Shown: piece after piece, positions 22,712 to 34,988 of the stretch
Position numbering within the stretch: the first letter of the stretch is position 1
How the letters are laid out: the number at the start of each line of letters is the position of its first letter
Source: Saccharophagus sp. K07
Lineage (GTDB): Bacteria > Pseudomonadota > Gammaproteobacteria > Pseudomonadales > Cellvibrionaceae
Direction of reading: 5' to 3'
Length of the DNA: 64,000 nt
NCBI RefSeq assembly: GCF_014336955.1
Contig: NZ_QRAI01000001.1
Location: 372,001-436,000, forward strand
Program-made: the position numbers and the translations under genes
The notes under the pieces: generated by a model
Told to the model about the DNA's origin: nothing
Databases searched by the model: none
Seen by the model: the letters and a program-made list of their open reading frames with translations, nothing else

Positions 22712-23518
22712 TCAGCCACCACAGTCGTCACTGTCGCAACTGATTTCGTGGTTCATATCCAGAGCGGGTTTGGCGGAACGCGGTTTGCCCACCGGCACGG
22801 CCGGTACGCCTGCCACGGTGGTATGTGGTGGCACGGCTTTCAGCACTACGCTTCCCGCACCTATCTTGGCGCCTTCGCCGATTTCTATATTGCCGAGAAT
22901 TTTGGCACCTGCACTGATCAGCACGCCGCGGCGCACTTTCGGATGGCGGTCGCCGGTTTCTTTACCCGTCCCCCCCAGCGTCACCGACTGCATGATGGAC
23001 ACATCGTCTTCCACAACGGATGTTTCCCCAATCACTATGCCAGTGGCGTGATCCAGCATTATGCCTTTGCCGATGCGCGCGGCGGGGTGGATGTCCACGC
23101 CAAATGTCAGGGCAATATGGCTTTGGAAGAAGTAGGCCAAGGCAAACCGGCCTTGACGCCACAGCCAGTGAGCCACGCGGTAGCACTGCAGGGCGTGAAA
23201 GCCTTTGAAGTAGAGGAAGGGCAGGCAGTATTCGTTACAGGCGGAGTCGCGCTCGAAAACCGCTTTGATGTCCTCGCGCATCGCCTGGCCAATTCTGGGG
23301 TCGCTGGAAAGGGCTTCGTCGATGATTTCACGGACTTGCAGCGCGCTGATCGCGGGGCTGGCGAGCTTCTGGGCCAGGTGATAACTCAGAGCATCTTCAA
23401 AGGTATCGTGATTCAGTATGGTCGAGTGCAGAAAGCTCGCTAAGGCAGGTTCGTTTTGCGCCTGGTCGCGAGTCTCTTGTTTGATTGTCTCCCACACCGG
23501 GTCTTGGTGTGCATGCAT
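22712..23518 (-). CDS. cysE: Serine O-acetyltransferase
   Basis: Transfers acetyl from acetyl-CoA to L-serine in cysteine synthesis. The 268-residue protein has an N-terminal helical domain (FLHSTILNHDTFEDAL) and a C-terminal left-handed beta-helix of hexapeptide repeats. The latter includes DIHPAARIGKGIMLDHATG with its catalytic histidine and GAKIGAGSVVLK. Length fits the classical hexameric CysE, whose C-terminal tail binds CysK. AGAGG lies about 9 bases before the ATG. Confidence 0.96.
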   Translation of the reverse strand: MHAHQDPVWETIKQETRDQAQNEPALASFLHSTILNHDTFEDALSYHLAQKLASPAISALQVREIIDEALSSDPRIGQAMREDIKAVFERDSACNEYCLPFLYFKGFHALQCYRVAHWLWRQGRFALAYFFQSHIALTFGVDIHPAARIGKGIMLDHATGIVIGETSVVEDDVSIMQSVTLGGTGKETGDRHPKVRRGVLISAGAKILGNIEIGEGAKIGAGSVVLKAVPPHTTVAGVPAVPVGKPRSAKPALDMNHEISCDSDDCGG

Positions 23519-23935
23519 ATGGGTTTACCTCTAAATGAAGATGCTTGGAAATTATTGGGTTTGTTTGAGCGAATTGCTAGGGGCCGGGGGCGATATTAAA
23601 GATCTTTTTTGGTGCAGATTTTTTGCGTTGCATCAAGACAGTGCCTACGCGCAGCCGGATTTCCGCGGGTGAGTTTGTTGATTAATGAATTGTGCCGCCA
23701 TTTTTGTGACGCGCTTGTATTTTGGAGATGGGCACAACCTTGTTATTAGAATCTGGCATCACTATTGCTGAATACCCTTCGCTTGGTGCTTCTGATAATT
23801 CAATTTTCATTAGCGAAATAAATTACTGAATCATCGCGCTGCAAGCAGAGGACTTGTTTCGTAAGTATGAGTATTTACTCATTTTATGAAAGCTCGTTGC
23901 ATCAACCGTCCTGATTTATTCAGGGTGGTATAAAT
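23519..23935. other. Intergenic region between cysE and the guanidine locus
   Basis: About 420 bases without a gene. It holds the cysE promoter side, a candidate sigma-54 element at 23753-23769 and a TATAAAT box near 23929 that could act as a sigma-70 minus-10 just before the riboswitch. No other structure recognised. Confidence 0.4.
23753..23769 (+). promoter_or_regulatory. Candidate sigma-54 promoter
   Basis: CTGGCATCACTATTGCT keeps the invariant GG and GC separated by ten bases, as in the -24/-12 consensus TGGCAC-N5-TTGC, with one mismatch in the -24 box. It lies about 180 bases upstream of the riboswitch on the correct strand. Nitrogen control by NtrC would suit a guanidine-nitrogen pathway. 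A match of this size can occur by chance. Confidence 0.35.
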
Positions 23936-24063
23936 AGGACAGCTAGGGTTCCGATTATCGTCGCGATAATGTCTGGTCCGAGAGCTGTCGACCTTCTCCC
24001 TTCATTATTGTTGTCGGATATGAACTGCAGAAGGTTACACGGCGGGATAAAAGCCCGGGAGGT
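23936..24063 (+). ncRNA. Guanidine-I riboswitch (ykkC RNA)
   Basis: The leader carries the conserved ykkC blocks in order: CTAGGGTTCCG (23943-23953), then TCTGGTCCGAGAG (23972-23984), a variable stem pairing ACCTTCT with AGAAGGT, and ACGGCGGGATAAAAGCCCGG (24039-24058). These blocks define the class that binds free guanidinium. It ends about 75 bases before the start codon of the substrate-binding protein. No clear intrinsic terminator follows, so translational control near the GGAGG site is possible. Confidence 0.93.
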
Positions 24064-24139
24064 TCGAAAACAGCCAACTCATATTTATTGTGCTGTCGAG
24101 TCCTCTGTCCAAAATTCGTGTAACCATTTGGAGGTTCTG

Positions 24140-25204
24140 ATGACCGGCAGTTTGCGCACTTTCGTTTTGCTCCTCTCTTGTTTTGCTTTTTTCGCTTCCA
24201 CATCTGCCTATGCAGAGCCGCGAAAAAAATTCAGCATTTGCTGGTCGATTTACGCAGGCTGGATGCCGTGGGGATTGGCTGCGGACAACAGCATTGTTAA
24301 AAAATGGGCCGATAAATACGGAATCGAAATTTCCGTAGTGCAAATCAATGATTACGTAGAATCCATCAATCAATATACCGCAGGAAAATACGACGGCTGC
24401 TCCATGACCAATATGGATGCACTGACAATTCCGGCGGCGGGAAATGTGGATTCCACTGCGCTGATCGTTGGCGATTTTTCCAACGGTAATGACGGTATAG
24501 TATTAAAAAATAAAAATAGTCTGGCTGCTATAAAAGGCCAGAAAGTCAATCTGGTGGAATTGAGCGTGTCCCATTATTTATTGGCGCGCGCGCTCGATAG
24601 CGTCGGTTTGGCGGAAAAAGATATCAAGGTTGTCAATACATCGGATGCGGATCTGGTTTCCGCATTTAATACGGCGGATGTTACAGCAGTAGTAACCTGG
24701 AATCCGCTGTTATCCGAAATTCTCGCCATGCCCAACACCCACGCCGTTTTTGATTCGACCAAAATTCCTGGCGAAATCATCGACCTCCTGGTGGTCAACA
24801 CCGAAACCCTGAAAGACAACCCGAATTTTGGCAAAGCACTGGTCGGCGCCTGGTACGAAACCATGGCGTTGATGAGCGCCGATAGTGAAGCAGGAAAAGC
24901 CGCGCGCAACGCTATGGGTAAAGCATCCGGAACCGATCTTGCCGGTTACGAAAAACAACTGGCGACTACCAAAATGTTTTATCAAGCCGCAGATGCGGTG
25001 GCCTTTACCAAAAGCGCCAGCCTGAAAACCACCATGCAGTATGTGGCGGAATTTTCGTTTGACCATGGATTGTTGGGCGAGGGTGCATCAGACGCGGGAT
25101 TTATCGGCATAGAAACACCTGTAGGCATTTACGGCAATCCGAAAAATGTTCGTTTCCGCTTTGATCCGACCTATATGCAAATGGCAGCGGACGGCAAGTT
25201 GTAG
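24140..25204 (+). CDS. ABC transporter substrate-binding protein (putative urea/guanidine uptake)
   Basis: A periplasmic binding protein of the NrtA/TauA-like superfamily, 354 residues, with a signal peptide ending at about SAYA-E. WSIYAGWMPWGLA opens the mature domain, and KYDGCSMTNMDAL is typical of this transporter family, usually annotated 'putative urea ABC transporter substrate-binding protein'. GGAGG at 24130-24134 sits 5 bases before the ATG at 24140; an upstream in-frame start would translate the riboswitch and is rejected. The guanidine riboswitch suggests guanidine or a related compound as ligand. Confidence 0.88.
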   Translation: MTGSLRTFVLLLSCFAFFASTSAYAEPRKKFSICWSIYAGWMPWGLAADNSIVKKWADKYGIEISVVQINDYVESINQYTAGKYDGCSMTNMDALTIPAAGNVDSTALIVGDFSNGNDGIVLKNKNSLAAIKGQKVNLVELSVSHYLLARALDSVGLAEKDIKVVNTSDADLVSAFNTADVTAVVTWNPLLSEILAMPNTHAVFDSTKIPGEIIDLLVVNTETLKDNPNFGKALVGAWYETMALMSADSEAGKAARNAMGKASGTDLAGYEKQLATTKMFYQAADAVAFTKSASLKTTMQYVAEFSFDHGLLGEGASDAGFIGIETPVGIYGNPKNVRFRFDPTYMQMAADGKL

Positions 25205-25269
25205 AAGCTCACCAACGCCTGCATTTGGCGAATTTTAAGACAGCTTCATAATTACAATCGGGATGCCCC

Positions 25270-26094
25270 ATGAAAAAATTGATCAATTGTGTTCCTGGGT
25301 GGGCTGCGCGATGGACGCTGGGACTGCTGCCGTTCGTGCTCTGTCTGGTGCTTTATCTTGTGGCGTCCAATGCCCGGTTAGCGGAAAACCAACACGATAA
25401 ATTGCTGCCGTCTTTTTCCAGCATTGCGGGAGCCATCGATCGAGCTGCGCTAACGCCCGATAAACGCAGTGGTGAATATATTTTTTGGCAGGATACCGCT
25501 GCCAGCTTGTGGCGCTTGACCTTGGGGGTGGGGATAAGCGCGCTGAGCGCACTGATTATCGGTGTACTCAATGGCGCGATTCCCTATTTGCGCGCGCCTT
25601 TATCTCCCTTCGTTACTGCGTTGTCGTTAGTGCCGCCCATGGCCATTCTGCCGATTCTGTTTATCGTGTTTGGTCTTGGTGAGTTATCCAAAGTCATGTT
25701 GATCGTGATCGGTATTACGCCATTTTTGATTCGCGATATTCAGCAGCGGGTTTTGGAAATTCCATCAGAACAATTGATCAAGGCGCAAACCTTGGGTGCC
25801 AGCACTTGGCAAATTATCGTGCGCGTCATTTTGCCGCAGACTATGCCGAGATTACTTGCCAGTGTGCGTTTATCTCTCGGCGCTGCATGGTTGTTTTTAA
25901 TTGCCGCCGAAGCCATAGCAGCGACTGAAGGCTTGGGATACCGCATATTCCTGGTGCGCCGTTATCTCTCCATGGATGTGATTCTTCCCTACGTGGTGTG
26001 GATTACCTTGCTGGCGTTTTTACTGGATTGGCTGCTGCGGAAAATATCCCGCTTGTGCTATCCGTGGTTTCACGCGCAAACGGAAAACGCATAA
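25270..26094 (+). CDS. ABC transporter permease (putative urea/guanidine uptake)
   Basis: A 274-residue inner-membrane permease of the SsuC/TauC/NrtB type with about six hydrophobic segments. The cytoplasmic coupling loop is visible as EQLIKAQTLGASTWQIIVRVILPQ (the EAA loop), which contacts the ATPase. It follows the binding protein by 65 bases and precedes the ATPase by about 12. Confidence 0.92.
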   Translation: MKKLINCVPGWAARWTLGLLPFVLCLVLYLVASNARLAENQHDKLLPSFSSIAGAIDRAALTPDKRSGEYIFWQDTAASLWRLTLGVGISALSALIIGVLNGAIPYLRAPLSPFVTALSLVPPMAILPILFIVFGLGELSKVMLIVIGITPFLIRDIQQRVLEIPSEQLIKAQTLGASTWQIIVRVILPQTMPRLLASVRLSLGAAWLFLIAAEAIAATEGLGYRIFLVRRYLSMDVILPYVVWITLLAFLLDWLLRKISRLCYPWFHAQTENA

Positions 26095-26106
26095 GGGGAA
26101 TTGATT

Positions 26107-26892
26107 ATGGCATTAATCGAAATTCGCAATCTGTGGAAAGAATACGGCTCTCAGGTTGTGCTGGAACAGCTCAACAAAACGGTTCATGAAGGTGAATTTG
26201 TCACTATCGTCGGCGCTTCCGGCTGCGGCAAAACAACGTTCTTGAAATTGCTGTTGGGCACAGAGTCGCCGAGTCGTGGACAGTTATTGCTGGACGGCGA
26301 ACCTATGGTTGCCGAGCCGGGTGAGGAAAGAGGAATTGTTTTTCAGCGCTATTCCGTATTTCCTCATATGACCGTGTTGGACAATGTGGTGCTTTCCAGC
26401 GAATTAAAAAGCAGCCCATTTTTAGGCCGTTTATTCGGTAAAGCGCGCAAGGAAGCGGAAAAGTCCTCAATTGAAATGATCGAAGCGGTTGGTTTGGGGC
26501 ACGCTTTGCGTAAGTACCCCCACGAGCTATCCGGCGGCATGCAGCAGCGCTTGGCGTTGGCGCAATCGCTGATCAAACGCCCGCGCATTTTATTGCTGGA
26601 TGAACCTTTTGGCGCGTTGGATCCCGGTATTCGTGCGGATATGCATCAACTGGTGTTGTCGCTGTGGCGCGAGCACAAGCTGACCATCTTTATGATTACT
26701 CACGACATCAAAGAAGGTTTTTATCTGGGAACCCGTTTGTGGGTTTTCGATAAACATCGCGTCGATCCGCAGGCGCCCAACGCCTACGGTGCGCAAATTA
26801 CCTACGATTTACCCGTTGATCGATCCGCGCAAAAAACGGCGGAAAAAATTGTTTCTCCGACGCAGATCAAACTGGCTGTCGGAGCGGCGTGA
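26107..26892 (+). CDS. ABC transporter ATP-binding protein (putative urea/guanidine uptake)
   Basis: A 261-residue ATPase with Walker A GASGCGKTT, Q-loop VFQRYSVFPH, signature LSGGMQQRLALA, Walker B ILLLDEPFGALD and the H-loop ITHDIKEG. It belongs to the SsuB/TauB/NrtD-like class matching the permease. The start at 26107 is preferred because AAGGGGA lies about 8 bases upstream. With the two genes before it, it forms a complete importer. Confidence 0.94.
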   Translation: MALIEIRNLWKEYGSQVVLEQLNKTVHEGEFVTIVGASGCGKTTFLKLLLGTESPSRGQLLLDGEPMVAEPGEERGIVFQRYSVFPHMTVLDNVVLSSELKSSPFLGRLFGKARKEAEKSSIEMIEAVGLGHALRKYPHELSGGMQQRLALAQSLIKRPRILLLDEPFGALDPGIRADMHQLVLSLWREHKLTIFMITHDIKEGFYLGTRLWVFDKHRVDPQAPNAYGAQITYDLPVDRSAQKTAEKIVSPTQIKLAVGAA

Positions 26893-26932
26893 TCAAACCT
26901 GTAATTTAATCGACAGACATAGGAGATATAGG

Positions 26933-27655
26933 GTGAAACCTAGTCTTTACAGCTATGCCGTGCCCGGCGCAAGCCATTGGTCTTTCCGTGTAAGACGCGG
27001 TCTTTCCATAAAAATGACGGATGTGGAAGGTGACGCAAATGTGGGAATGTTGATGTACAACCCGGAAGATTTGCTCGAGCGCTACAACGCGCCGGACACC
27101 CTGAAATGCCAGCACACTTTTAAATTAACCAAAGGCCACTGTTTATATTCGGATATGGGGCGGATTTTTTGCTCGATTGTCGATGACACCGTCGGCTGGC
27201 ACGAAACCATCAGCGGCAACAGCAACGCGGAAACAGTCGCGACGCGCTGGGGCGCACGCGACTATCAGAGCGATCGCAATTTATGGAAACAAAACGGTTA
27301 CGACAGCTTTTTGGTTGAACTGGCCAAATACGGATTGAATGGCCGAGATATGGCCGCCAATATCAATTGGTTTAGCAAAGTGGGAGCCGATGACAACGGC
27401 GTATTGCGATTAGTGCAAAACCACTCCAAACCAGGTTCCAGTGTGACTTTGCGTTTTGAAATGGACACGCTGGTGGTGCTGCACACCTGCCCACACCCAA
27501 TGAATATTGAGGCGGAATATCCGCGCAAACCCGTTCTGTTTGAATTTTTCGAATCCAACGCTTTGGAGGCAGACGATATTTGCCGCGATAGTTGCGCCGA
27601 AAACCAGCGCGGATTTGCCAATAACATGCTGTATTACATGGGAGCTGCCCGATGA
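26933..27655 (+). CDS. cgdA: DUF1989 protein, carboxyguanidine deiminase subunit (urea-amidolyase-associated protein 1)
   Basis: A 240-residue DUF1989 protein, historically 'urea carboxylase-associated protein 1'. In Pseudomonas syringae this pair forms a carboxyguanidine deiminase that turns carboxyguanidine into allophanate and ammonia. Motifs include [37 protein letters not shown] and a cysteine/histidine-rich region with HTCPHPMN. The GTG start is chosen because AGGAGATATAGG precedes it; the in-frame extension upstream lies inside the ATPase gene. It is coupled to the next gene by ATGA. The symbol is given by homology only. Confidence 0.85.
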
Positions 27656-28299
27656 CTGCGATGGTGCGTGAAAGTCTATTAAACGCGGAAAATGCCGTGC
27701 TGCGCGAAGTGGTGCGCGCCGGTGATTATTGGTTGAAAGAAATCAAAAAAGGGCAGACCTTCCGTATTTTGGATTTAGAAGGAAATCAGGCGGCCGATAC
27801 CTTGTTTTACAACGCTGACGATCCCAGCGAGCGCTACAGCGCCACGGATACAGTGCGCGAACAAAGAAATTTGTATTTAACCGTCGGCAGTCAATTGCGT
27901 TCCAATTTAAATAACGTCATGTTGGAAATTGTCGCGGATACTTGCGGTCGGCACGATACCATAGGTGGTGCATGTGCAACGGAAAGCAACACAGTGCGTT
28001 ATTCCTTGGAAAAACGCTGCATGCATGCCTGCCGCGACAGTTGGATGCTGGCACTTGCGGAACACGAACATCTCGGCATCAGCAAACGCGATATCACCCA
28101 TAACATCAATTTTTTTATGAATGTTCCGGTAACGCGGGACGGTGGATTAACCTTCGCAGATGGCATTTCAGCACCGGGAAAATATGTGGAATTGCGTGCA
28201 TGTATGAATGTGATTGTGCTGATTTCCAACTGCCCGCAGCTGAATAATCCCTGTAATGCCTACAATCCGACGCCGATTGAAGTTTTGGTCTGGAATTAA
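27652..28299 (+). CDS. cgdB: DUF1989 protein, carboxyguanidine deiminase subunit (urea-amidolyase-associated protein 2)
   Basis: A 215-residue paralogue of the preceding gene: [27 protein letters not shown] aligns with its [14 protein letters not shown] region. The probable metal ligands are the cysteines and histidines of [20 protein letters not shown] and [11 protein letters not shown]. It acts as a heteromer with the partner in known systems. The start overlaps the previous stop (ATGA), so equal synthesis of the two subunits is likely. Confidence 0.85.
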
Positions 28300-28323
28300 T
28301 TTTTGCAACTCTGCTAACACGCT

Positions 28324-28370
28324 GACCAGGACGACCTGAGTCGGTTTACTGTGTATGTCGGGACGACCCG
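28324..28370 (+). ncRNA. Guanidine-II riboswitch (mini-ykkC RNA)
   Basis: Two small hairpins with identical ACGA tetraloops. The first is CAGG-ACGA-CCTG (28327-28338), extended by GAC/GTC across a bulged A. The second is CGGG-ACGA-CCCG (28359-28370). Tandem GG-ACGR-CC hairpins define the mini-ykkC class, in which the two loops kiss and bind guanidinium. The second hairpin ends 13 bases before the carboxylase ATG, beside a weak GGGAA ribosome site. That position fits control of translation start. Confidence 0.88.
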
Positions 28371-28383
28371 CCGGGAATCTCTT

Positions 28384-31300
28384 ATGTTTAATAAAGTCAT
28401 GATTGCCAACCGCGGGGCTATAGCCGTGCGGATTATCAAAACCTTAAAAAAAATGGGCATCTCCAGTGTGGCGGTTTATGCAGAGGCGGATGTCGATTCC
28501 CTTCATGTATCCCTTGCGGATGAAGCCTGGTCCTTAGGTGAGGGCATAGCCGCGCAGACCTATTTGGATCAACAAAAATTATTCGATATTTTGCAAAAAT
28601 CCGGTGCGCAAGCCGTGCACCCTGGCTACGGTTTCTTAAGTGAAAATGCTGATTTTTGCCGCGCTTTGACGGAAAACAATATCGCCTTTATCGGGCCTAC
28701 CCCGGAACAAATGATTGCCTTCGGTTTAAAACACGAAGCGCGTCGTTTGGCACAGGAGTGCGGTGTGCCGCTGTTGCCTGGAACATCGCTGCTGTCTTCC
28801 GTCGATGAAGCCGCAGAACAAGCGGAAAAAATTGGCTATCCGGTGATGTTGAAAAGCACGGCGGGTGGCGGCGGTATTGGTATGCAGATCTGCCGCAATC
28901 CCGAGCAGTTGCGCGCTTCCTGGCAGGGTATCAAACGGCTAAGCGCAAATAACTTCGCCAACGAAGGTGTATTTTTAGAAAAATACGTCGAACGCGCGCG
29001 CCATATCGAAGTGCAGGTATTTGGCGATGGCAAAGGCGAAGTGGTGGTGCTCGGTGATCGAGACTGCTCCACCCAGCGCCGCCACCAAAAAGTCATCGAA
29101 GAAGCACCTGCGCCCAATATCCCACCGCATGTGCGCCAGCAATTGCACGACAGCGCCAGTCGCCTTGCATCCTATGTGCATTACCGCAGCGCCGGGACGG
29201 TCGAATTTATCTATGACAGTGTGACCCATCAATTTTATTTTTTGGAAGTCAACACCCGCCTGCAGGTTGAACACGGCGTAACCGAAATGATTTACGGCGT
29301 GGATCTGGTCGAATGGATGATCCGCACGGCGGCGGGAGAAATGGAACCTCTGAATCATGTGCGCAAAAACTTGCAGCCAAAGGGACATGCTATTCAGGCG
29401 CGCATTTATGCGGAAAATCCCGCGCGCGATTTTCAGCCCTCGGCAGGCACGCTCAATGTGGTGCGCTGGCCGGAAGCAGAGACTGGAAAACTTCGTGTGG
29501 ATCATTGGGTTGGTTCAGGATCGGTTATTTCGCCGCTTTACGATCCAATGCTGGGAAAAATCATCGCTTGGGCGGATACGCGCAAAAATGCCATAGAGCG
29601 TTTGAACGCAGCACTGGAAAAAACAGTGCTGGAGGGAATTGTCACTAACAGCGCTTATATAGGGGCCATTTTAAAAACAGATGCGCTGCTGCGCGGTGAA
29701 ATTCATACCCGTTATTTGAATGATTTTTCTTATGTGCCGCAAAGTTGCGATGTGTTATCTCCGGGCACTTTGACCACCATTCAGGATTATCCCGGTCGAC
29801 GCGGTTATTGGGATGTTGGTGTGCCGCCGTCTGGACCTTTTGACGATCTGGCATTTCGTTTGGGTAATCGCTTGCTCGGCAACCCAGAAGACGCTGCTGG
29901 TTTGGAAATCACCTTTAACGGTCCGACATTAAAATTCAATAGCCACCAGCGCTTGGTTCTGACCGGAGCGGAAATGGAAGCTTCCCTGGATGGCGAACCG
30001 GTCGCCTTTTACGAAGTTTTTAGCGTAAAACCGGGGCAAGTGTTAAAAATTGGCAAAATCAAAGGCGTCGGTTCGCGCGCTTATTGTTTATTTTCCGGCG
30101 GTATTCTCTGTGAAAATTACCTCGGCTCAAAATCAACTTTTACGCTTGGCCAATTCGGCGGTATTACCGGAAATGCCTTGCGCACGGGCGATGTACTCAG
30201 TTTCGATTTTGCGCAGGATGCGGCCATAACAAAATTGCCGGAGCAATTGCACCCGCAATTGAGCAATCACTGGCAATTGCGCGTGATTTACGGCCCTCAC
30301 GGCGCGCCCGACTTTTTTACGCCAAAGGATATAGACACATTTTTTGCCAGCCACTGGCGCGTTCATTACAACTCCAGTCGCACCGGCGTACGTTTGATCG
30401 GACCAAAACCGGAATGGGCGCGTTCAGATGGCGGCGAAGCGGGAATGCATCCATCGAATATTCACGACAACGCTTATGCAGTCGGCAGTATCGATTTTAC
30501 CGGCGATATGCCGGTTATTCTCGGGCCGGACGGTCCTTCACTCGGCGGATTTGTCTGTCCCGCCACAGTTATTGCAGCGGATTTGTGGAAGCTCGGCCAA
30601 TTGCGTGCGGGCGATACCATACAGTTTATTCCGGTGAGCATTGACGATGCCGCGCAGCTTTTGGCTGAGAGACAACAGGCTCTGCAGTTGTTGGAAAATA
30701 AAATCGCCTGGGATCGCGAGATTGCGCGTGCAGAACTGCAATCGCCGATTTTGCGAACACTGCAAAAAAATCCCGAAGACGAGCCGGTGGTTTATCGTCC
30801 ATCAGGTGAGTGTCATCTGCTGGTGGAATACGGTTCTCTGCGCTTGGATCTGGTGCTGCGTTTCCGCGCGCACACTTTGATGTTGTGGTTGCAAGAGCAG
30901 CGCAAGAAAAACGGGCTGTTGCAGGATGCGATTATCGATCTCACCCCGGGAGTTCGTTCTCTGCAAATTCATTACGACCCGCTGTTATTGCCGCTTAATG
31001 AACTGCTCGATTTACTCGAACGCGCGGAAGACGAATTGCAGAATATCAAAACCACTCGCGTGCCTTCGCGCATTGTGCATTTGCCCTTGAGTTGGGACGA
31101 TCAAGCCTGTCGTTTGGCCATCGAAAAATATAGGCAGTCGGTGCGCAAAGACGCGCCCTGGTGTCCGAGCAATATCGAATTTATTCGTCGCATTAATGGC
31201 TTGGACTCCATAGAAGAGGTTAAAAAAATCGTTTTTGATGCGAGCTATGTGGTGATGGGGTTGGGCGATGTTTATCTGGGCGCGCCCGTTGCAACACCGC

Positions 31301-32010
31301 TTGATCCACGCCATCGTTTGGTGACAACCAAATACAACCCGGCGCGCACCTGGACGGCGGAAAACTCCGTAGGCATCGGTGGTTCTTATATGTGTATTTA
31401 CGGCATGGAAGGGCCGGGGGGTTATCAATTTGTCGGCCGCACTCTGCAAATGTGGAATCGCTATCGCCAAACCGAAGAATTCACCAAGCCTTGGCTGCTG
31501 CGCTTTTTCGATCAGATCCGTTTTTATGAAGTGTCCGCAGAAGAATTAGCGCAGATCCGCCGCGATTTTCCTCTCGGTCGCCATCACGTAAAAATCGAGC
31601 AGACCTATTTTGATCTAGAGGAATACCAGGCATTTCTTGCGCGTGAGCAGAAATCCATCGACGCATTCGTCAAAACACGCAACGTGGCTTTTGAAGAGGA
31701 ATTGCAGCGCTGGGTGGAATCTGGACAAATGCACTACGAAAGCCAGAGCGCCGACGAGGATGCTGCAGAACATGGGGAACTCGAACAGGGCGCTATAGCC
31801 GTGGAAAGCCCCGTGGCCGGGAATATCTGGCAAGTGCTGGTCAAACCCGGCGATAAGATTTCGGCTGGCGATATAGTGTGTGTTCTAGAATCCATGAAAA
31901 TGGAAATTGAAATTCCGTCACCCGAGTCGGGTATCGTCAAAGCGGTTAAACGACAACAAGGACAGTCAGTAGCTGCAGGGCAGGCGATAGCTGTATTGGA
32001 AATGGCGTAA
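28384..32010 (+). CDS. Biotin-dependent urea/guanidine carboxylase
   Basis: A 1208-residue enzyme using ATP and bicarbonate to carboxylate urea or guanidine. The biotin carboxylase domain (about 1-450) begins FNKVMIANRGAIAVRI and has the GGGGIGMQ ATP loop. Carboxyltransferase domains related to KipI/KipA (about 465-1040) include DGPSLGGFVCPATV and GLGDVYLGAPVATPLDPRHRLV. The C-terminal biotinyl domain holds the biotin lysine K1172 in ESMKMEIEIP. The start at 28384 is where the domain begins; the in-frame GTG at 28351 lies inside the mini-ykkC RNA. Both riboswitches and the DUF1989 pair suggest guanidine as the main substrate, although the name in databases is usually urea carboxylase. No allophanate hydrolase domain or gene is attached. 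Confidence 0.93.
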   Translation: MFNKVMIANRGAIAVRIIKTLKKMGISSVAVYAEADVDSLHVSLADEAWSLGEGIAAQTYLDQQKLFDILQKSGAQAVHPGYGFLSENADFCRALTENNIAFIGPTPEQMIAFGLKHEARRLAQECGVPLLPGTSLLSSVDEAAEQAEKIGYPVMLKSTAGGGGIGMQICRNPEQLRASWQGIKRLSANNFANEGVFLEKYVERARHIEVQVFGDGKGEVVVLGDRDCSTQRRHQKVIEEAPAPNIPPHVRQQLHDSASRLASYVHYRSAGTVEFIYDSVTHQFYFLEVNTRLQVEHGVTEMIYGVDLVEWMIRTAAGEMEPLNHVRKNLQPKGHAIQARIYAENPARDFQPSAGTLNVVRWPEAETGKLRVDHWVGSGSVISPLYDPMLGKIIAWADTRKNAIERLNAALEKTVLEGIVTNSAYIGAILKTDALLRGEIHTRYLNDFSYVPQSCDVLSPGTLTTIQDYPGRRGYWDVGVPPSGPFDDLAFRLGNRLLGNPEDAAGLEITFNGPTLKFNSHQRLVLTGAEMEASLDGEPVAFYEVFSVKPGQVLKIGKIKGVGSRAYCLFSGGILCENYLGSKSTFTLGQFGGITGNALRTGDVLSFDFAQDAAITKLPEQLHPQLSNHWQLRVIYGPHGAPDFFTPKDIDTFFASHWRVHYNSSRTGVRLIGPKPEWARSDGGEAGMHPSNIHDNAYAVGSIDFTGDMPVILGPDGPSLGGFVCPATVIAADLWKLGQLRAGDTIQFIPVSIDDAAQLLAERQQALQLLENKIAWDREIARAELQSPILRTLQKNPEDEPVVYRPSGECHLLVEYGSLRLDLVLRFRAHTLMLWLQEQRKKNGLLQDAIIDLTPGVRSLQIHYDPLLLPLNELLDLLERAEDELQNIKTTRVPSRIVHLPLSWDDQACRLAIEKYRQSVRKDAPWCPSNIEFIRRINGLDSIEEVKKIVFDASYVVMGLGDVYLGAPVATPLDPRHRLVTTKYNPARTWTAENSVGIGGSYMCIYGMEGPGGYQFVGRTLQMWNRYRQTEEFTKPWLLRFFDQIRFYEVSAEELAQIRRDFPLGRHHVKIEQTYFDLEEYQAFLAREQKSIDAFVKTRNVAFEEELQRWVESGQMHYESQSADEDAAEHGELEQGAIAVESPVAGNIWQVLVKPGDKISAGDIVCVLESMKMEIEIPSPESGIVKAVKRQQGQSVAAGQAIAVLEMA

Positions 32011-32158
32011 GACAAGTGGGCTTAAATTACAAAACCTATTGGGGTTTTCCTTCATTTGATGGAAACCTCGATCATACATTCAGTTTTGATTATGGCGAAT
32101 TTGAGGATATTGCAGAGGAGAAGAGTAATATAACGGGGGATAATTACTCGAGTAGAAC

Positions 32159-32311
32159 TCAATAACCCGGGTGATGCGCAAAAGATTGTGAAGAGTTGTG
32201 CTGATCAACAAGCGGGTGCACGATTCCGCGATTAGGTGTAACAGAACTCAAAATCAACGTAATTGCCGCCTGAACCAGAACGATAAATAACAATTCTTTT
32301 CGACGAAACAT
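32159..32311 (-). CDS. Small putative membrane protein, 50 residues
   Basis: A short gene on the minus strand, starting MFRRKELLFIVLVQAA. A single hydrophobic segment (about residues 7-24) follows a positively charged N-terminus, consistent with a small membrane protein. AGGAG lies 7 bases before the ATG, which is the main support. The C-terminal part is rich in His, Ser and Asn. I do not recognise the family. Confidence 0.5.
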   Translation of the reverse strand: MFRRKELLFIVLVQAAITLILSSVTPNRGIVHPLVDQHNSSQSFAHHPGY

Positions 32312-32614
32312 GGCCAACTCCTAAATGGTCCCGAAAAAATCCAGCAATAGCGGAGCAGGCTGTTGGACTTGAGGAGTTTCACATGACGCCAGAGCAAAAT
32401 GATTGCGCTGTAGCTGACGGTTGTGCGTCAGGTGACCCTGCCTCAAACAGATTCTGCCCCGCATATTGCTGGCAAACCGATTGATTATGAGAGCGTCCGC
32501 ACTAGACGACCTTGTATTGGTGCGAACAGAAAGCGACAACTCACTGCTTTCTGGGCTCCGCCGACATACTGTCCGGCAGATGACCGCATCTCCTTTTGCG
32601 GTCGACGTAAGCTT
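32312..32614. other. Spacer with one possible 33-residue cysteine-containing ORF
   Basis: About 300 bases without a recognised gene. A plus-strand ORF at 32383-32484 begins MTPEQNDCAVADGCAS, has four cysteines in 33 residues and a GAGGAG site 6 bases upstream. It could encode a small peptide, but length alone gives little support. Confidence 0.25.
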
Positions 32615-33235
32615 TTATTCTCTGTGATCGAGTTGCTCGGTCAGCTGAACCACAGCGTGTTGCGAGGACTCTGGGACAATTTCCAGTTTGTCCACAACCT
32701 GTTTCACGCCTTGGGTATTCTTGACCAGCCAATACATCAGTATTTTTTCTGCCTCGGAATTGACGGAACCGCTCAGTGTGACAACTTGATTGCGGGTTTC
32801 CACGTCGATTTCAATTCCGCTCGTGATTCTGTTAGCCAACAATTGCGAACGCACTTTGTTGGTGATAGTCACATTCGAAAGACGATTTTGATTATCTTTT
32901 TGTAACTCCACCGATTGCACCGAAGATTCCCACTGTTCCGGCGCCACTATTAATCGGTTAACAACCTTATTAATGCCTTTAACACTTAGAGCAAACTGTT
33001 CGGCTAAAGCTTTGCTCGTTTCAGAATCCACATATCCCTTTAGGATCGCGAAATTGTTTTGAATCTCAACTCGAATATCTTTGGAGCGAAGATAAGGGCT
33101 AAAAATAAATGCGCCTTCAATCACTCCTTTCTGCCAGCTTTGCAAATCATTTGCCCAGGCTGCGCTCGCAAGACTCTGCAATGCGATAGCACATAAGCAG
33201 GCAATGGAAAAAATACTGAGTTTTTTATTTTTCAT
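32615..33235 (-). CDS. Periplasmic double-BON-domain protein (OsmY-like)
   Basis: A 206-residue exported protein with a signal peptide (about 1-28, ending AAWA-N). It contains two BON domains. The first (about 35-100) includes KDIRVEIQNNFAILKGYVDSE; the second (about 120-190) includes GIEIDVETRNQVVTLSGSV. BON proteins bind phospholipid or envelope components and are often induced by stress. OsmY-like envelope protection is the likely role, by family only. Confidence 0.85.
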   Translation of the reverse strand: MKNKKLSIFSIACLCAIALQSLASAAWANDLQSWQKGVIEGAFIFSPYLRSKDIRVEIQNNFAILKGYVDSETSKALAEQFALSVKGINKVVNRLIVAPEQWESSVQSVELQKDNQNRLSNVTITNKVRSQLLANRITSGIEIDVETRNQVVTLSGSVNSEAEKILMYWLVKNTQGVKQVVDKLEIVPESSQHAVVQLTEQLDHRE

Positions 33236-33563
33236 TGCACGCCGGGGTTGAGTTCCAAAACATTTAGGTTAAAACTGCCCGTTCTTAGCCGGACCGACCG
33301 TAATCAAGGTTTGAGCTTTTAAGACTCGCCTCGATCATACATGGCGACTTGGCCTTTAGCGGCTTTCATGCCAAAAATTAAAAAATCTTTTTACATCAAC
33401 ATGTTATAAACTTTTCAACAAGTCCCAGGGGTGATTGGACCTGTTTGAACCCCTCGTTTTGTTGGTAAAAAGCAACGCGGTTTTATTGTTTTCATAAAAA
33501 ATCCTTTAAAATCAAAGGTCTGTTTTGTTGCAATTTTGCAACATTCGAAGTGGAATTCCTAAG

Positions 33564-34988
33564 ATGTTTCGACTCTTAAACCGTCTGACGCTGACCCGTC
33601 AGTGGATATTGGCGACATTATTGGCGATTTTGCCGCTCGTGATTGCGGTGCTCTACGCCGCGCAATATCTGATGTTGCAGGCGCAAAGCCAGAGGGAGAT
33701 GGTGGCTTCTGTTGGCCGCCTAAATGAGATGGATTCGCAAATCAGCAAACAGATCAGCAGTATCGAACGCTCGGCCCGCCAGTATTTGCTGTTGCGTACG
33801 CCTCGTTTTTTGGAAATTTTCCAGCAGCATATAGAGGTGGTGTTGCCAGTACTTAATCAGCTTGGCGCAGATCTGCCGCAAAGTCAGTCTGCGGCCTTGT
33901 TGCAGGAAGTGATCAAAGTAATTGCGCAGGAGCTGAGTCAGACTGCACCGGAGCTTATTGCGCAGGAATCGATCTCGGCCAATTTTCAGCAGGCCAACGC
34001 TTTGGCTCGCCAGCTGAGCGATGAGGTTGATCAAAGGGTGCAGGAGATGCTGGATGAGAGCGACCTGCAGTTTGAGCAAATCATGCGGCACCTTTTGTTG
34101 ATCGGAGTTTTCGCCCTGCCGGGCACTTTGTTGTTGGTCGTGTTGTCATCTGTCGCTGTGACTCGTCCGGTGAGAAGGTTGGCATACGCGATACGGCGTT
34201 TGGGGTTGGGTCATTGGGATGAGCCGATCCAGATCAGTGGGCCGGCGGATTTGCGGTCTCTTGGCGCAAACCTGGAGTGGATGCGTCATCGTTTGGATGC
34301 CACAGAGAAGCAGAAGCAGGCGTTTTTGCGTCATATGACCCATGAGCTCAAGACGCCGTTGGCCGCAATCGTGGAAGCGGGCGCGTTGTTACGCGACGAG
34401 GTGCCTGGGCCGGCGAACACTGCGCAACAGCAGGTTGTGTCCATTTTGATGAGCAATGCGGATAACCTGCATGTGTTGATTCAGCAATTGTTGAACTACA
34501 ACGCAGTGGCACATGGCATGCTTAACGCCGACGCAAACGTTGATCTGGCAGCCTTGTGCAATAGAATTCGCACCAAATTGATGGACTCCCGCCCATCGAG
34601 TCGCTGCGAATGGTCCATATCCGGGAAACCCAACATCATCCGGAGTGATCCACAGGCATTGGAAATGATTCTCAGTAATTTAATGTCCAACGCACACGAC
34701 TTTACTCCGGAATCCGGTAGAGTGGCGGTCACCTGGGGGCAGGAGTCAGATAGCTGGTGGCTGAAGGTGACGGACAACGGTCCCGGCATGACCCCGGAGG
34801 AGCGCGAAAAGATTTTTAAGCCGTTTTTTCAGGGCAGAGCCCGCCGGCGCGGTCCGTTAAAAGGAACCGGATTGGGGTTGGCCATTGTGCAGGAGTGCGT
34901 TGCCCACCTGCAGGGCACTATAGAAGTGACTTCCAGCGCAGAAGGAAGTGAATTTACTGCGCGTTTCCCGCTTCGCAGAGAGAAATAA
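33564..34988 (+). CDS. glrK: Sensor histidine kinase, GlrK/QseE-like
   Basis: A 474-residue inner-membrane kinase. Two transmembrane segments (about 14-34 and 175-198) bracket a helical periplasmic sensor, and a HAMP region follows. The HisKA domain has the phospho-acceptor H260 in THELKTPLAA. The ATPase domain has the N box (NLMSNAHDFTP), G1 (DNGPGM) and G2 (GTGLGLAI). The order kinase, small lipoprotein, sigma-54 response regulator matches the glrK-qseG-glrR operon of Enterobacteria. The ATG at 33564 is chosen as the first with a sensible N-terminus; the in-frame start at 33525 adds 13 residues. Confidence 0.87.
   Translation: MFRLLNRLTLTRQWILATLLAILPLVIAVLYAAQYLMLQAQSQREMVASVGRLNEMDSQISKQISSIERSARQYLLLRTPRFLEIFQQHIEVVLPVLNQLGADLPQSQSAALLQEVIKVIAQELSQTAPELIAQESISANFQQANALARQLSDEVDQRVQEMLDESDLQFEQIMRHLLLIGVFALPGTLLLVVLSSVAVTRPVRRLAYAIRRLGLGHWDEPIQISGPADLRSLGANLEWMRHRLDATEKQKQAFLRHMTHELKTPLAAIVEAGALLRDEVPGPANTAQQQVVSILMSNADNLHVLIQQLLNYNAVAHGMLNADANVDLAALCNRIRTKLMDSRPSSRCEWSISGKPNIIRSDPQALEMILSNLMSNAHDFTPESGRVAVTWGQESDSWWLKVTDNGPGMTPEEREKIFKPFFQGRARRRGPLKGTGLGLAIVQECVAHLQGTIEVTSSAEGSEFTARFPLRREK

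Follow-up and report, generated by a model that had tools for sequence, protein, structure and literature searches.

A 64,000-nucleotide stretch of the Saccharophagus sp. K07 genome (contig NZ_QRAI01000001.1, positions 372,001–436,000, forward strand; hereafter the window) very probably, with a likelihood we put at roughly 90%, carries an operon for guanidine import and assimilation. It would encode an ATP-binding cassette (ABC) importer, CgdA, CgdB and a guanidine carboxylase. The 5′ leader would contain a guanidine-I (ykkC) riboswitch, and a guanidine-II (mini-ykkC) riboswitch would lie inside the operon, before the carboxylase gene. Comparison of the whole window with 4227 Rfam families using cmscan at gathering thresholds gives exactly two matches, the guanidine-I and guanidine-II aptamers, both on the plus strand and over their cut-offs (95.8 versus 63 bits and 34.1 versus 32 bits). 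This bears out a preliminary description of the locus, made from the sequence alone, which had proposed that both classes are present and co-directional: neither element falls below threshold in the covariance-model search, and the coordinates given there are correct to within a few bases. The order is guanidine-I, three importer genes, cgdA, cgdB, guanidine-II and carboxylase, all co-directional (Table 1).

Guanidine, not urea, is the likely substrate. Asp704 of the carboxylase (codon 30493–30495) aligns with Asn1330 of the urea amidolyase structure 5i8i_A, which we take to be the specificity residue meant by the published Asp/Asn rule. By that rule, given in the 2025 review without a residue number, Asp marks guanidine carboxylases and Asn urea carboxylases. 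Asp occupies this position in the carboxylases of 64 of 65 relatives, the remaining one being broken by a contig end; the count was made with a wide motif, a narrower one having missed 26 of the 65 genomes. The two DUF1989 proteins are taken as CgdA and CgdB from their membership of PF09347, the family from which these subunits are defined in PMC11410670. Because of Asp704, the DUF1989 pair and the guanidine aptamers, the ‘urea’ names attached to these genes appear misleading, as the preliminary description had argued and as is already the published view. The guanidine reading of this widespread ‘urea’ cluster is thereby confirmed in one more lineage.

In the mechanism that we propose, guanidine binding to guanidine-I would switch the operon on from its first gene, and the same ligand on guanidine-II would open a further gate, at the point where the long, ATP-using carboxylase is translated. 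The last step of the pathway, allophanate hydrolysis, would be supplied by a gene outside the operon. We infer ligand binding and switching on by both RNAs, a single transcript and the translational action of guanidine-II from what has been published on operons of this type.

The guanidine-I/guanidine-II pairing is already in print. The 2025 review describes it in three enterobacteria, whose operons resemble the window in having importer and deiminase genes with guanidine-I and the carboxylase directly downstream with guanidine-II; they differ in that allophanate hydrolase lies within the guanidine-II-controlled section. According to PMC12508155 (2025), the operon of Vreelandella boliviensis is preceded by guanidine-I, as in several other bacteria, and shares with the window the ABC importer, cgdA, cgdB and a guanidine-II between cgdB and the carboxylase. 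It also contains mgdH, mgdL and allophanate hydrolase, whereas the window cluster ends with the carboxylase gene. In-line probing in that study gave 44 µM for guanidine-I and, for guanidine-II, 93 µM with guanidine and 83 µM with methylguanidine, and the operon proteins were raised on guanidine.

The arrangement is conserved in relatives. Marinagarivorans sp. UBA5868 (contig DJFQ01000226.1), with a CgdB 86% identical to that of the window, matches the window in the placement of guanidine-I (87.5 bits) and guanidine-II (35.5 bits) and resembles it in the leader stretch from aptamer to start codon; sequence divergence is the sole difference in the parts compared. In a sample of 244 genomes of the same order, guanidine-I occurs in 70, guanidine-II in 64 and both in 46. 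We call the two linked where guanidine-II follows guanidine-I on the same strand at a distance of no more than 12 kb; this holds for 42 genomes, across 18 families, and a rough estimate of the chance of such linkage at a random place is ~0.0015 per genome. Both elements exceed the curated cut-offs in 36 of the 42 linked genomes, with guanidine-II below in five and guanidine-I in one (hand count). A class-wide sample (274 genomes, that of K07 included) has guanidine-I in 22, guanidine-II in 19, both in 11 and linkage in eight. The 82 guanidine-I matches of the order reduce to 80 loci in 70 genomes once a half-match (G192) and a weak match (G111) are left out. Most of these 80 fetched loci keep the order importer, cgdA, cgdB, carboxylase, and 11 named relatives, chosen from 80 fetched, comprise seven with both elements over cut-off, three with guanidine-I only and one with guanidine-II only. 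Two ACGR hairpins precede the carboxylase start in 47 of 65 stretches, some of them in genomes with no listed guanidine-II match (for example, G218 and G171).

These counts, together with the printed descriptions, led us to reject the idea that the two-class combination is unusual. The genome survey proposed there does find further loci with both classes, and shows them to be common, not rare (42 of the 70 order genomes with guanidine-I); by count, guanidine-I in the sampled order is more often than not accompanied by guanidine-II a few kilobases downstream. The original observation is correct and its biochemical reading mostly so, yet the locus is a typical case of an arrangement that is common and already published. 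Some clusters hold two guanidine-I elements and one guanidine-II (L071/L079 in G191, L101/L104 in G061, L113/L131 in G231 and L117/L124 in G025); in G191, for example, the distances from the two guanidine-I elements to the downstream guanidine-II are 7.2 and 2.7 kb. Such a locus has three guanidine switches. In another member of the K07 family (L082, genome G090) a single ACGR hairpin stands before the carboxylase, as if the first half of guanidine-II had been lost.

Several points weigh against our reading of the window. The guanidine-II score is a narrow pass, only 2 bits above the RF01068 cut-off. A two-hairpin guanidine-II before the carboxylase is not obligatory, being absent from 18 of the 65 stretches, although at least four stretches (L080, L107, L128 and L129), judged by eye, probably have a wrongly placed start codon, three of them within the 18. 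Folding of the 47 two-hairpin cases, of which 11 were dropped for lack of a Shine–Dalgarno word and 36 scored, gives no effect in a test for masking of the Shine–Dalgarno site by guanidine-II (mean 0.01 versus 0.01 kcal/mol for shuffles); the test cannot model loop–loop contact, and a null result is what would be expected if guanidine-II acts by such contact, which is invisible to this kind of folding. Finally, allophanate hydrolase is absent from the operon, whereas in 40 of the 65 relatives the fetched stretch that contains the carboxylase also contains a match to it. Its presence elsewhere in the genome counts in favour of our reading: the sole match over cut-off (828 bits, cut-off 511) lies at G000:C1:601862–603511 (L065:2803–4632), ~198 kb past the operon end, with no guanidine-I or guanidine-II match beside it. 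That gene overlaps a GntR-type regulator gene that is read in the same direction.

We accept guanidine-II beyond its score because it has two ACGA hairpins, stands before the carboxylase and occupies the same place in relatives. Read directly, hairpin 1 (28324–28342) closes its ACGA loop with seven pairs, interrupted by one bulged A, and hairpin 2 (28359–28370) closes its own with four; 13 bases separate hairpin 2 from the carboxylase ATG at 28384. A chance match was considered and rejected, given the intact loops, the site before the carboxylase and the same site in relatives.

The preliminary description had further suggested separate sensing of uptake and catabolism, that is, two independent units in which guanidine-I serves uptake and guanidine-II, with a promoter of its own, serves catabolism. 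We consider this improbable for the window. Guanidine-II does precede enzyme genes in every locus where its place was read, and in five genomes (G017, G064, G088, G134 and G174), whose substrate-binding protein is 29–33% identical to that of the window, it lies between the importer and cgdA, shortly before the latter, giving a clean split. In the window, however, the catabolic genes cgdA and cgdB are upstream of guanidine-II, and the cgdB stop is only 24 bases 5′ of its first hairpin. The gap from cgdB to the carboxylase is 84 bases long, and a weak scan lists no promoter-like site near guanidine-II. Scans of 23500–33600 for promoters and terminators gave 4 and 9 sites against shuffle means of 12.3 and 14.6 and carry little weight, and a promoter may lie within cgdB. 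Guanidine-II appears to be a second control point on one presumed transcript, not a separate unit. Loci L085, L095, L106, L108 and L109 (the L064 region and similar) combine a distant substrate-binding protein (29–33%) with a guanidine-II before cgdA instead of the carboxylase.

We give equally little credence to decay of guanidine-II, with guanidine bound weakly or not at all and guanidine-I alone mattering. Such decay would fit the score of 34.1 bits against 32, the second hairpin of four pairs only, a plain fold of 28300–28400 that is not stabler than shuffles (z 0.02) and the single hairpin retained in the family relative G090. It fits poorly with the intact ACGA loops and closing G–C pairs of both hairpins, a position that is kept in relatives, and other operons scoring 31 to 35 bits that are widespread at the same place. 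Least probable of all is a true urea amidolyase system with a urea importer and riboswitches for a ligand other than guanidine, which has on its side the NCBIfam names (urea carboxylase, putative urea ABC transporter, urea amidolyase associated proteins) and against it the Asp that replaces Asn at the specificity position, guanidine aptamers from two unrelated classes and the published reassignment of these families.

The sole point at which our analysis goes beyond confirmation is a hint, a modest computed addition, that guanidine-I here may act on translation. The 2025 review has guanidine-I usually acting through a terminator, and such action is presumed for V. boliviensis in PMC12508155; in the window leader a weak scan found no terminator-like site on the plus strand between the aptamer and the first gene. 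The expression platform does not enter into the RF00442 family definition. Of the 80 loci, 76 have a usable start codon, the motif landmarks fit 64 of these, and folding covered 63; the leaders are akin to each other, so that counts among them are not independent. A T-run or lax terminator-like site is present in 17 of the 76 leaders, some of which may be transcriptional, and absent from 59, including that of the window.

It is quite possible, at slightly less than even confidence, that guanidine-I in this order is often translational, such that an anti-aptamer beside the Shine–Dalgarno site would pair with the ACACG core and the P2 3′ strand whenever guanidine is absent. None of 200 shuffles folds as well as the window leader (z −2.92), and in the unconstrained ensemble the helix formed by the candidate anti-aptamer of this leader has pair probabilities of 0.99–1.0 and aptamer P2 ~0. 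The Shine–Dalgarno site is masked only partly in this fold, its bases having unpaired probabilities of 0.05, 0.98, 0.51, 0.22 and 0.28. Across the 63 leaders, enforcing the aptamer eases opening of the Shine–Dalgarno site by a mean of 2.07 kcal/mol, compared with 0.34 for dinucleotide-shuffled linkers (15 shuffles per leader; highest replicate mean 0.77 kcal/mol). The gain exceeds 1 kcal/mol in 40 leaders and a loss exceeds it in seven; the window leader gains 2.4 kcal/mol, equalled by one of its 15 shuffles. The crude aptamer constraint held three or fewer P1 pairs in 14 leaders, and the other 49 show a mean effect of 2.24 kcal/mol, with 30 exceeding 1. Of 74 leaders, 23 contain a complement of at least nine to an aptamer segment; 40 rounds of shuffles gave 5.6 such leaders on average and never more than 10. 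Three of the four leaders with aptamer GGUCACAC (L105, L150 and L176; not L169) have GUGA where the window has GUGUAA, a change that is suggestive of compensation in cases chosen by eye.

On the folding results, guanidine-I in the window would act near the Shine–Dalgarno site and not via an intrinsic terminator. If so, one mRNA would carry in series two guanidine switches that are unrelated in fold and both act on translation, in place of the transcriptional and translational pair that print presumes. A limited literature search did not find a translational mode for guanidine-I, which may already be in print.

Table 1 Features of the guanidine cluster (window positions)
Feature	Position	Strand	Basis
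Guanidine-I (ykkC) riboswitch aptamer	23932–24063	+	RF00442, 95.8 bits, cut-off 63, E 3.8e-16, full length 1–107
Candidate anti-aptamer CGUGUAACC, proposed switch strand beside Shine–Dalgarno	24117–24125	+	Exact complement of aptamer 24033–24041
Shine–Dalgarno site GGAGG of first gene	24130–24134	+	Sequence
ABC transporter substrate-binding protein, probably for guanidine	24140–25204	+	TIGR03427 ‘putative urea ABC transporter substrate-binding protein’, 571.9 bits, cut-off 333.9; substrate inferred
ABC transporter permease	25270–26094	+	Best NCBIfam model TauC-type permease, 121 bits, below model cut-off
ABC transporter ATPase	26107–26892	+	NF006987 (184 bits), TIGR01184 (179 bits), both below cut-offs
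UAAP1, DUF1989 protein, putative CgdA-type subunit of carboxyguanidine deiminase	26933–27655	+	TIGR03425, 321 bits; PF09347, 206 bits
UAAP2, DUF1989 protein, putative CgdB-type subunit of carboxyguanidine deiminase	27652–28299	+	TIGR03424, 341.6 bits; PF09347, 229 bits
Guanidine-II (mini-ykkC) riboswitch aptamer	28323–28371	+	RF01068, 34.1 bits, cut-off 32, E 0.0046
Probable guanidine carboxylase, 1208 residues, family-model name urea carboxylase	28384–32010	+	TIGR02712, 1824 bits, cut-off 1304

The cluster is flanked by two minus-strand genes, a serine acetyltransferase gene upstream and an OsmY-like gene (below model cut-off) downstream. Searching the whole genome (4.27 Mb, 19 contigs) with the Rfam models finds guanidine-I once and guanidine-II twice. 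The second guanidine-II is the stronger (45.6 bits), lies on another contig (G000:C6:133094–133141; L002:1501–1548) and precedes an SMR gene of the SugE type (SugE match 133.5 bits, cut-off 126). SMR proteins of this kind are guanidine exporters according to the 2025 review. With this element before a SugE-type exporter gene, the genome would have riboswitch-linked guanidine export in addition to import and breakdown.

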